Shown here in pieces: positions 30,960-32,566 of a stretch of DNA of 64,000 bases; the first letter of the stretch is position 1, and each line of letters begins with the position of its first letter. This stretch comes from Rhizorhabdus wittichii RW1 (GTDB lineage: Bacteria; Pseudomonadota; Alphaproteobacteria; Sphingomonadales; Sphingomonadaceae), in the NCBI GenBank assembly GCA_000016765.1, contig CP000699.1, positions 930,001 to 994,000 of the forward strand, in the 5' to 3' direction. The notes below the pieces were generated by a model, which did not search any database, was not told the origin of the DNA, and saw only the letters and a program-made list of their open reading frames with translations. The translations under genes were made by a program, and so were the position numbers.

Positions 30960-31415
30960 ATGGGAGACAGCTTCGCACTCAACGACATCGCGCACACCAT
31001 CCAGCTCGCGATGGCCCCCTGCTTCCTGCTCACCGCGATCGGCGCGATGCTCAACATGCTGACCGGGCGGCTCGCCCGCGTCGTCGACCGGTCGCGCTGG
31101 ATCGAGCAGCACTTCACGGCGAAGAACGATCCCAGCCACCCCTATCAGGTGCAGCAGCTCCGCTGGATCGACGAGCGGATGCGCTACGCCAACCGCGCGC
31201 TGATCCTCTGCACGATCAGCGCGGTGCTGATCTGCATCGTCATCGCCGGGCTGTTCACGGCGGTGCTGTTCGACCTCGCGCTGGCGCAGCCGATCGCGAT
31301 CATCTTCGTGCTGGCGATGCTGCTGCTGATCGCCGGCCTCGGCATGTTCCTCTACGAGATCCGCATCGCGGTCCACGCCACTCGCGTCCAGGACGAGCTG
31401 CTGGAGCGCGAATGA
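30960..31415 (+). CDS. DUF2721 family membrane protein
   Basis: A 151-aa protein with three hydrophobic segments (IQLAMAPCFLLTAIGAMLNMLTGRLARVVDR, then two helices after the RWIDERMRYANRALILCTISA segment). Pattern and length match DUF2721 proteins of unknown function. The ATG at 30960 is preferred to a TTG 18 bases upstream. Its stop overlaps the next start (ATGA), so the two membrane proteins are coupled. Confidence 0.82.
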   Translation: MGDSFALNDIAHTIQLAMAPCFLLTAIGAMLNMLTGRLARVVDRSRWIEQHFTAKNDPSHPYQVQQLRWIDERMRYANRALILCTISAVLICIVIAGLFTAVLFDLALAQPIAIIFVLAMLLLIAGLGMFLYEIRIAVHATRVQDELLERE

Positions 31416-31816
31416 TCCGCGAACGCACCCTGTTGCAAGGCGTCGTCGCGGTCGCCTGCCTGGTGCCGATCCTGGCGGGGATCGACGGCGTCCTGCGCGG
31501 CGCGGCGATGCTGCGATCCGGCGTGGTGACGGCCGATCTCGACAGCCATTTCCGCTATCTCTCGGGCATCTTCCTGATGCTGGGCATGGCGTTCGTCTCG
31601 ACCATCCCGGCGATCGAGCGCCAGGGGCCGCGCTTCCGCCTGCTCGGCGCGATGGTGGTGATGGGCGGGCTCGCGCGCCTGCTGAGCTGGGCGGCGGTCG
31701 GTGCGCCGAGCCTGCCGCACCGGCTGGGGCTGGTCATGGAACTGGTGGTCGTGCCGCTGTTGATCCTGTGGCAGGCGCGGATCGCGGCCCGGGCGACGCG
31801 CGAAACCCGGAAATGA
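31412..31816 (+). CDS. DUF4345-like four-helix membrane protein
   Basis: A 134-aa protein with about four transmembrane helices (GVVAVACLVPILAGIDGVLRG; YLSGIFLMLGMAFVSTIP; LLGAMVVMGGLARLLSW; LVMELVVVPLLILWQARIA). The DSHFRYLSGIFLMLG motif fits DUF4345. Function unknown; translationally coupled to the DUF2721 gene. Confidence 0.8.
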   Translation: MIRERTLLQGVVAVACLVPILAGIDGVLRGAAMLRSGVVTADLDSHFRYLSGIFLMLGMAFVSTIPAIERQGPRFRLLGAMVVMGGLARLLSWAAVGAPSLPHRLGLVMELVVVPLLILWQARIAARATRETRK

Positions 31817-31847
31817 AAAGAGTTGCCGAGGCCGAAGCCCCGGCAAC
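31816..31847 (-). terminator. Strong UUCG-loop terminator of the small transcript
   Basis: On the minus strand an 11-bp stem (31822-31832 with 31837-31847, one G-U pair) closes a UUCG tetraloop and is followed by TCTTTT. Its 3' arm word is repeated exactly at 31977-31986, upstream of the 18-codon ORF. A second small hairpin is at 31863-31878. Confidence 0.85.
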
Positions 31848-31898
31848 CCCTAACATGGTCAGCGGCCGGAGTGCCGGCCCGGAGAACCATGGCGCCTC

Positions 31899-31955
31899 TT
31901 AGAAGCGCGTTCCCCGAACGGACAGAACCGACCTCCATGCTGAACCATGAGACAT
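31899..31955 (-). CDS. 18-residue ORF with near-perfect Shine-Dalgarno sequence
   Basis: Encodes MSHGSAWRSVLSVRGTRF. The 15 bases GAAAGGAGGTGATCC (31957-31971) just before the ATG are an unbroken complement of the 3' end of 16S rRNA, much stronger than any other site in the window. The peptide is basic with no membrane segment. It lies alone on the minus strand, 80 bases after a lipoprotein gene, and ends in its own terminator. It may encode a small peptide, or be the translated part of a regulatory RNA. Not recognised as any known family. Confidence 0.6.
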   Translation of the reverse strand: MSHGSAWRSVLSVRGTRF

Positions 31956-32035
31956 CGGATCACCTCCTTTCGCAATGTTGCCGAGGACTCGAACATGGGT
32001 CATCGCCGCGCTGCGAACAAGCCTTGTAATATCTT

Positions 32036-32566
32036 CTATTTTCGGCAATCCTCGATGGCTCGCGCCGGTTCGGCCCAGGCCGGGACCGCCAGGTCGGGAA
32101 GCCCCGGCGAGCGCACCGCGATCCGCCCCCGGCTGAACGCCATCACGTCCAGGAAAGCATCGTTCGCGCTCAGGATGACCGCGCTCATCGCCGCGCCGCG
32201 ATCGGTGACGTGGCCGGCGGGGAAGCGCGCGCTGCGGGTCGAGGCGAGGATCTCGATCTGCGCGCTGGTCCCCGCGCGCATGATCGTCACCTGCCGCTTC
32301 GCCGCGTCGCACTGCACGACGAGCTGCGACGACTGGCCATCGCCATAGCGCGCCGCCGACACCGGCGTGCCCGGAACATAGCGCCATGTCCCCGACGCGA
32401 TCGGCCAGTCGCGCCAGTCGCCGGCATGCGCGACGGGCGCGGGAGCTGCCGGCGGCGCGGGGGGCGGCACCGGCGCGGGCGGCGCGGAGGTGGTCGCGGC
32501 ACAGCCGCCGAGCGCCAGCAGGACCAGCACGGCGAACGGTCGGATATCGGTCGATCGGAAAGGCAT
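32036..32566 (-). CDS. Lipoprotein, paralogue of the next gene upstream
   Basis: A 176-aa protein with lipobox LGGC (Cys about 22), a Pro/Ala linker, then a globular domain (GTWRYVPGTPVSAARYGDG, QLVVQCDAAKRQVTIMR, AFLDVMAFSRGRIAVRSPGLPDLAVPAWAEPARAIEDCRK). The W-Y, central Cys and C-terminal DCR pattern recurs in the 32626-33306 product, so the two arose by duplication. Function unknown. Confidence 0.75.
   Translation of the reverse strand: MPFRSTDIRPFAVLVLLALGGCAATTSAPPAPVPPPAPPAAPAPVAHAGDWRDWPIASGTWRYVPGTPVSAARYGDGQSSQLVVQCDAAKRQVTIMRAGTSAQIEILASTRSARFPAGHVTDRGAAMSAVILSANDAFLDVMAFSRGRIAVRSPGLPDLAVPAWAEPARAIEDCRK

Follow-up and report, generated by a model that had tools for sequence, protein, structure and literature searches.

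A short minus-strand unit of Rhizorhabdus wittichii RW1, lying within the 64,000-nucleotide stretch of DNA analyzed here (the window, in whose positions all coordinates are given), is rather likely to be a free-standing translated small RNA with a fold set by ribosome loading, and to form the sphingomonad branch of a class-wide group that includes CC2171. By comparison of sequences, the element combines a ribosome site of maximal length with a short but real frame that stops at a fixed place, and it has conserved helices and its own terminator. The RNA probably senses translation, or is switched by it, rather than yielding a useful peptide. The features of the locus, with the whole transcript first, are as follows.

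31811–31986, minus strand: CC2171-like translated sRNA, whole inferred transcript of ~175 nt, with an inferred 5′ end
32036–32566, minus strand: lipoprotein-like gene of 176 aa, the upstream neighbor of the element; no Pfam/NCBIfam match
32017–32027, no strand: palindrome ACAAGGCTTGT over the −35 box, a possible operator
31992–32020, minus strand: inferred sigma-70-type promoter, read from sequence
32015–32020 and 31992–31997, minus strand: inferred promoter boxes, −35 TTGTTC and −10 CATGTT, with a 17 bp spacer
~31984–31986, minus strand: inferred transcription start
31977–31986, minus strand: second copy of a 10-base word (minus-strand sequence CCTCGGCAAC), located where the transcript is inferred to begin
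31957–31971, minus strand: GAAAGGAGGTGATCC, a 15-nt Shine-Dalgarno sequence of full length and the complement of the 16S 3′ tail GGATCACCTCCTTTC
31899–31955, minus strand: 18-codon ORF MSHGSAWRSVLSVRGTRF, with ATG at 31955 and stop TAA ending at 31899
31939–31949, minus strand: 5′ strand of helix P1, CATGGTTCAGC, codons 3–6, pairing with 31854–31863
31928–31933, minus strand: GGTCGG, predicted to pair either with CCGGCC at 31864–31869 (fold B) or with start-region CCGAT at 31954–31958 (fold A)
31880–31916, minus strand: inner helix P2 with the stop codon inside, CGGGGAAC at 31909–31916 with GTTCTCCG at 31880–31887, from the congener alignment
31854–31869, minus strand: 3′ strand of helix P1, CCGGCCGCTGACCATG, directly upstream of the terminator
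31818–31851, minus strand: intrinsic terminator with a 15-bp stem and a UUCG loop, then a short T run (TTTT)
31412–31816, convergent with the element: DUF4345 gene (Pfam)

The preliminary description of this minus-strand unit was borne out as an observation, since all of the features it had named were present in the sequence. These were the 15-base complement to the 16S 3′ tail, the 18-codon ORF (with a frame that proved to be conserved), the UUCG-capped terminator, and a 10-base word, GTTGCCGAGG, found twice (31822–31831 and 31977–31986). Pfam agreed with its assignment of the neighbors to DUF4345 and DUF2721, and downstream of the unit there is no co-directional gene at this locus, with DUF4345 running opposite. 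Its interpretation divided. The free-standing unit of sRNA and small ORF held up, with a conserved frame, a covarying stem, and its own terminator, whereas the 10-base attenuator was not supported and antisense control of DUF4345 is unlikely. The comparison with relatives and the covariance analysis that it had proposed as checks found the element conserved across sphingomonads, with covariation in P1 across the class.

Distribution and genomic setting

Within the host genus, the element was found in 14 of 14 genomes (RW1 included), at 82–97% identity in the others. A covariance model, R1, was built from 30 sphingomonad sequences and matched 31811–31981 at 177 bits, where the scored sequences include the model's own seed. 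Searched against near-complete genomes of the family, R1 recovered the element in 185 of 200 genomes, which represent 84 of 89 genera, and nearly every one of them has a single copy. For the wider class, we used a pattern of 17 fixed bases taken from AAGGAGGTGATCCNNTGTC that excludes the 16S gene itself. In a class-wide sample of 289 genomes, 45 had exactly one match to this pattern, and a reversed-pattern control gave zero; in a Rhizobium family, a slightly different pattern matched once in each of 52 genomes out of 101. Pattern counts are lower bounds because variants such as GGAGGTGGTCGAATG exist, and all sequences counted here are related, such that the counts are not numbers of independent events. 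Among the matches listed with named genomes, 110 of 117 belonged to Alphaproteobacteria and covered at least eight orders, and a few of the remaining matches were chance occurrences inside ordinary genes. The GGAGGTGGTCGAATG variant is seen, for example, in second copies in some sphingomonads. Several of the family and genus genomes (L191, L200, L209, L210, L211, and L213) carry one to three extra CC2171-like copies (GAAAGGAGGTGRTCGAATGTCTCATTGTC.., with a peptide MSHC..), which are nearer to Caulobacter CC2171 than the main copy is.

The lipoprotein-like gene was the upstream neighbor at 68 of 71 family loci by tblastn, whereas DUF4345 was a neighbor at 13 of the 71, and for this reason we consider antisense control of DUF4345 unlikely. 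The nearest downstream genes vary in kind and direction across families. With promoter-like boxes and terminators of its own, and with neighbors that are unrelated between families, the element is, as judged from its sequence context, a free-standing unit. At Rhodobacterales loci (L131, L167, and others) from several genera, a queuosine-precursor transporter gene lies upstream and arfB downstream, in the same direction as the element; this arfB encodes the ribosome-rescue hydrolase ArfB. At the Novosphingobium and Porphyrobacter loci L065, L082, L085, L101, L158, and L160, the next co-directional gene is ilvE, a branched-chain aminotransferase call for which one protein was tested.

The −35 box TTGTTC is kept in all aligned congeners, and the palindrome, in the form (A/T)CAAGNCTTGT, was found in all aligned congeners and in several other sphingomonads. 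In other families, a promoter-like arrangement (CTTG..N17..−10) was read by eye 5′ of many members. At the opposite end of the unit, the terminator stem arms covary with each other among congeners, and a strong terminator-like hairpin was found on 143 elements. The region as a whole folds with a minimum free energy (MFE) of −92.5 kcal/mol, at z = −5.2 versus shuffles. Promoter sites of the CcrM type (GANTC) were rejected as a general trait, being present in 30–36% of the two largest groups, at some fixed positions, and rare elsewhere. In a minority of CC2171-like members (e.g., L081, L090, L115, and L143), GANTC has a near-fixed place 5′ of the −10 box, and this placement makes a GcrA/CcrM link possible.

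The two 10-base words had been taken as a possible cis attenuator, in which the 5′ arm of the terminator would pair with either copy under control of the ORF. RW1 does have two exact copies, and 9–10 of 10 pairs are possible in 11 of 14 genus genomes. However, the upstream copy is degraded in the congeners L013–L015 (8, 7, and 8 of 10 pairs, respectively) and absent outside the genus, though the element persists in both cases. This copy also sits on the inferred transcription start, the terminator arms change together, and there is no downstream gene to attenuate. We regard the attenuator as largely refuted and give it almost no chance of being correct.

The ribosome site and the short reading frame

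The Shine-Dalgarno sequence GAAAGGAGGTGATCC is a perfect 15-base complement of the 16S tail GGATCACCTCCTTTC. The reference for this tail was taken from rRNA operons of Sphingomonas, Sphingobium, and Novosphingobium (on plasmids and chromids), in which it is present letter for letter; the 16S genes of RW1 itself gave no match in the genome-wide search. There is a single exact copy of GAAAGGAGGTGATCC in the 5.9-Mb genome, where the next best sites have two mismatches, and a scan of the window for further 16S-tail complements with ≤2 mismatches yielded none besides 31957–31971. The site is as exceptional as had been claimed, and the 15 nt are exact in 86 of 90 family genomes.

A complement that is maximal in these genomes and across the class would also be expected of a ribosome decoy. 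Here, the 15-bp complement would hold 30S subunits or the 16S tail and damp global translation when the RNA is abundant, and the ORF and fold would merely tune ribosome dwell time. In several lineages, the RNA also contains an internal sequence resembling the 16S tail, which can release the site (GGAGCAGCCTYY; L135). A decoy needs neither a fixed stop at codon 19 nor a covarying P1, however, and titration of ribosomes by an RNA with one gene copy would take extremely high abundance. We consider this reading, with its dwell-time role for the ORF and fold, unlikely.

The position of the stop is conserved in one frame. We compared 118 distinct ORFs of the family, which first stop in frame at codon 19 (n = 107), codon 20 (n = 8), or codon 21 (n = 3), and in the other two frames of the same ORFs, stops were scattered from approximately codon 5 to none within 80 codons. 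TAA, TAG, and TGA all end family ORFs alike. A codon-19 stop was also found in 21 of 23 ORFs (20 distinct) of the Rhodobacterales-type group, for which the peptide (VSRVILERGVGT..) is unrelated. On comparative grounds, this frame-specific conservation of the stop marks the short frame as translated.

The encoded residues follow a different pattern. Codons 1–5 and 9 of the family ORF are invariant or nearly so, synonymous sites included, and codon 7 reads NNG, where only the third base is fixed and the two before it are free. Residue class changes over codons 10–18, and the peptides are unrelated between orders. On these comparisons, what is selected appears to be the frame, the length, and the RNA sequence, and not the peptide. 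As frame and length are kept and the peptide is not, the selected property would be the passage of ribosomes to codon 19.

Two protein-centered explanations bear on the same data. If the unit were simply a gene for a small protein, helped by a strong ribosome site, this would account for the fixed frame and length, but no peptide is conserved between families, the constraint inside the ORF acts at the RNA level, and P1 covaries; we disfavor this explanation and hold it to be very improbable. A classical dual-function sRNA, combining a trans-acting antisense RNA with a functional micropeptide, would accommodate both the translated frame and the conserved RNA, and has precedents in alphaproteobacteria in rnTrpL/peTrpL and Pos19 (PMC10117765, PMC5036791). 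This too seems quite unlikely here, as roughly nine of the 18 residues are free to vary within the family and codon 7 is conserved at its third position. Peptides that are unrelated between orders, together with conserved nucleotides that are read in different frames among rhizobial members, likewise speak against it.

Predicted alternative folds and a proposed role of ribosome loading

The 3′ strand of helix P1 contains GCTGACCATG in 89 of 90 family genomes, and within the family the helix is nearly invariant (98–100% paired over 16 pairs). Evidence for P1 consequently rests on class-wide comparison. RNAalifold, applied to the family alignment, found the start hairpin and missed P1, because an invariant helix receives no covariation credit there. 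For the class-wide comparison, in which P1 involves codons 3–5 or 3–6, segments were cut by a rule (the last ATG before the terminator), and sequences to which it could not be applied were set aside. In the resulting set of 43 sequences from several orders, reduced from 49 by leaving out near-duplicates and wrong-ATG cuts (L100, L172, and L175) and thereby biased in favor of the helix, 96% of cells pair. This set has 17 double-changed cells versus 3.5 in shuffles, and 0 of 500 shuffles reached 17. One variable position is U-A, G-C, or C-G, and another is U-A, C-G, or A-U. When each member's own 5′ and 3′ segments were compared with swapped ones, own segments paired better in two groups (p = 2e-4); P1 did not show in this test in the Rhodobacterales-type group (p = 0.24). 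The register of P2 is shifted in Novosphingobium and Erythrobacter, and 67.5% of cells were paired over alignment A1.

A second hairpin, CCGAU/GUCGG (fold A), covers the start codon and shares GGUCGG with P1 (fold B). Calculated for 99 family members, the energy difference between the folds was −2.1 ± 3.8 kcal/mol, with 48 of 99 within 3 kcal/mol, and the errors of such energies are as large as this difference and too rough for proof of a switch. Fold A was part of the MFE structure for 96% of prefixes of these members that lacked the 3′ strand. Mutually exclusive folds around the start, other than the pair first proposed, exist as a prediction of the folding model.

We propose that, during synthesis, the start region would form the local hairpin of fold A, in which the start codon is hidden together with some of the ribosome site. 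Once made, the pre-terminator segment CCGGCCGCUGACCAUG could capture codons 3–6 and GGUCGG, giving fold B with P1. A ribosome docked via the 15-bp anti-16S helix would, in translating the 18 codons, open P1 and P2 and free the 3′ strand. The RNA would in this way read ribosome loading, and its 3′ half would be exposed or hidden as a result. This half probably acts on other RNAs, though a target in trans is a guess. The stable structure around the start would explain why so long a ribosome site is needed, and the fixed stop fits a requirement that ribosomes advance by a defined distance into the hairpin.

Masking of the ribosome site was compared across the class. Pairing between the ribosome site and sequence inside the ORF gave a mean z versus shuffles of −2.6 in Bradyrhizobium, −1.6 in rhizobia, and −1.2 in the CC2171-like group; for sphingomonads the excess over shuffles was weak, at a mean z of −0.5. 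In the Rhodobacterales-type group, the site pairs with distal sequence beyond shuffles (mean z −1.4). For several of these lineages, the internal partner resembles the 16S tail itself. The 12-base word GGAGCAGCCTYY, with a few variants allowed, lies near the ORF end in 32 of 56 distinct rhizobial-type ORFs and is read in three frames (26, 5, and 1). In L135 (Rhodospirillaceae), the distal part of the element contains GCGGATCACCTCCG, which mimics the 16S tail perfectly over 12 bases and lies in cis to the ribosome site. We rejected an internal look-alike as a trait of sphingomonads, where the signal is weak at the mean z given above.

These observations raise a tentative further reading, namely a class-wide sensor of free 30S subunits, in which the RNA carries the full 16S-tail complement and, in several lineages, an internal copy-cat of the tail (e.g., GGAGCAGCCTCC, in any frame) that would compete with the ribosome for this complement. 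Ribosome supply would then set the fold, and hence the action of the 3′ half. We see this sensor as possible but doubtful; it rests on the class-wide masking of the ribosome site, whereas the main claim, of a translated sRNA with a fold set by ribosome loading, does not.

Relation to CC2171 and other known systems

The Rfam model for CC2171, RF01867, matched the window at 31819–31979 with 44.3 bits (E = 4e-8 in 501 bases). This match spans the full length of the model, positions 1–159 of 159, with the CAAC leader at one end and the terminal hairpin at the other, and the element was the sole match in the 5.9-Mb genome (E = 1.1e-7). At the gathering cut-off, Rfam returned tRNAs only for the window. 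Because its score falls below the curated cut-off of 75 bits, the element is not an RF01867 member by Rfam's rule; members of the group from Methylobacterium, Bosea, Brevundimonas, and Falsiroseomonas exceed this cut-off. On the basis of these alignments, the window element is a specific sub-threshold relative of CC2171, outside the curated family. The preliminary description had recognized no known RNA family, which is partly wrong in view of this specific relationship to CC2171.

CC2171 and the window element share a leader, CAAC..GAAAGGAGGUGAUCC, with the start codon directly after it and then UGUCUCAU. Both are independent units in which the ORF start pairs long-range with a segment just 5′ of the terminator hairpin. 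In CC2171, UCAUUGUC after the start codon pairs with GACAAUG before the terminator, and in place of this CAUUGUC/GACAAUG helix, the window element has a compensated CAUGGU/ACCAUG. The ORF peptide of the window element differs from that of CC2171. CC2171 has also been predicted as MH_s33 in Mesorhizobium huakuii (PMC5596092). The papers found that name RF01867 list CC2171 without a function and describe for it no ORF and no 16S complement, and a literature search for the motif itself found nothing related. On our comparison, a poorly known Caulobacter sRNA becomes one branch of a larger group that most sphingomonads possess and that extends, among the matches listed, to at least eight orders of Alphaproteobacteria. 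Its shared anatomy, which is not evident from Rfam, comprises the longest possible ribosome site, a frame selected for its stop but not for its peptide, and competing start folds, and taken together these traits suggest that the RNA gauges translation itself.

Metastable start hairpins that give way to later long-range pairing, with a small ORF inside a structured regulatory RNA, are known from hok mRNA of plasmid R1 and from RNAIII of Staphylococcus aureus. In contrast to these, the element has no toxin and no antisense partner, and it has no sequence relation to either.

In Sinorhizobium meliloti, rnTrpL/peTrpL is likewise a short sRNA that bears a small ORF and may act in trans as an RNA (PMC10117765 and works cited there). 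It is leaderless and derives from trp attenuation, whereas the element has no operon behind it and a ribosome site of maximal length. The same species encodes SEP1, a 23-aa peptide with a pI of 4.18 that is conserved in Rhizobiaceae and had the highest translation efficiency among 54 new S. meliloti sORFs (PMC10117765). SEP1 resembles several rhizobial members of the element group in length and acidity. By this analogy, SEP1 as a rhizobial member of the group is a lead only, and the SEP1 data make translation of class members plausible. Finally, extended Shine-Dalgarno sequences of Staphylococcus aureus (PMC13009471) also form a longer-than-usual SD/anti-SD helix near the start codon, as the element would. 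There, a few extra pairs are spread over many mRNAs (PMC13009471), whereas here one RNA carries the full 15-base complement.
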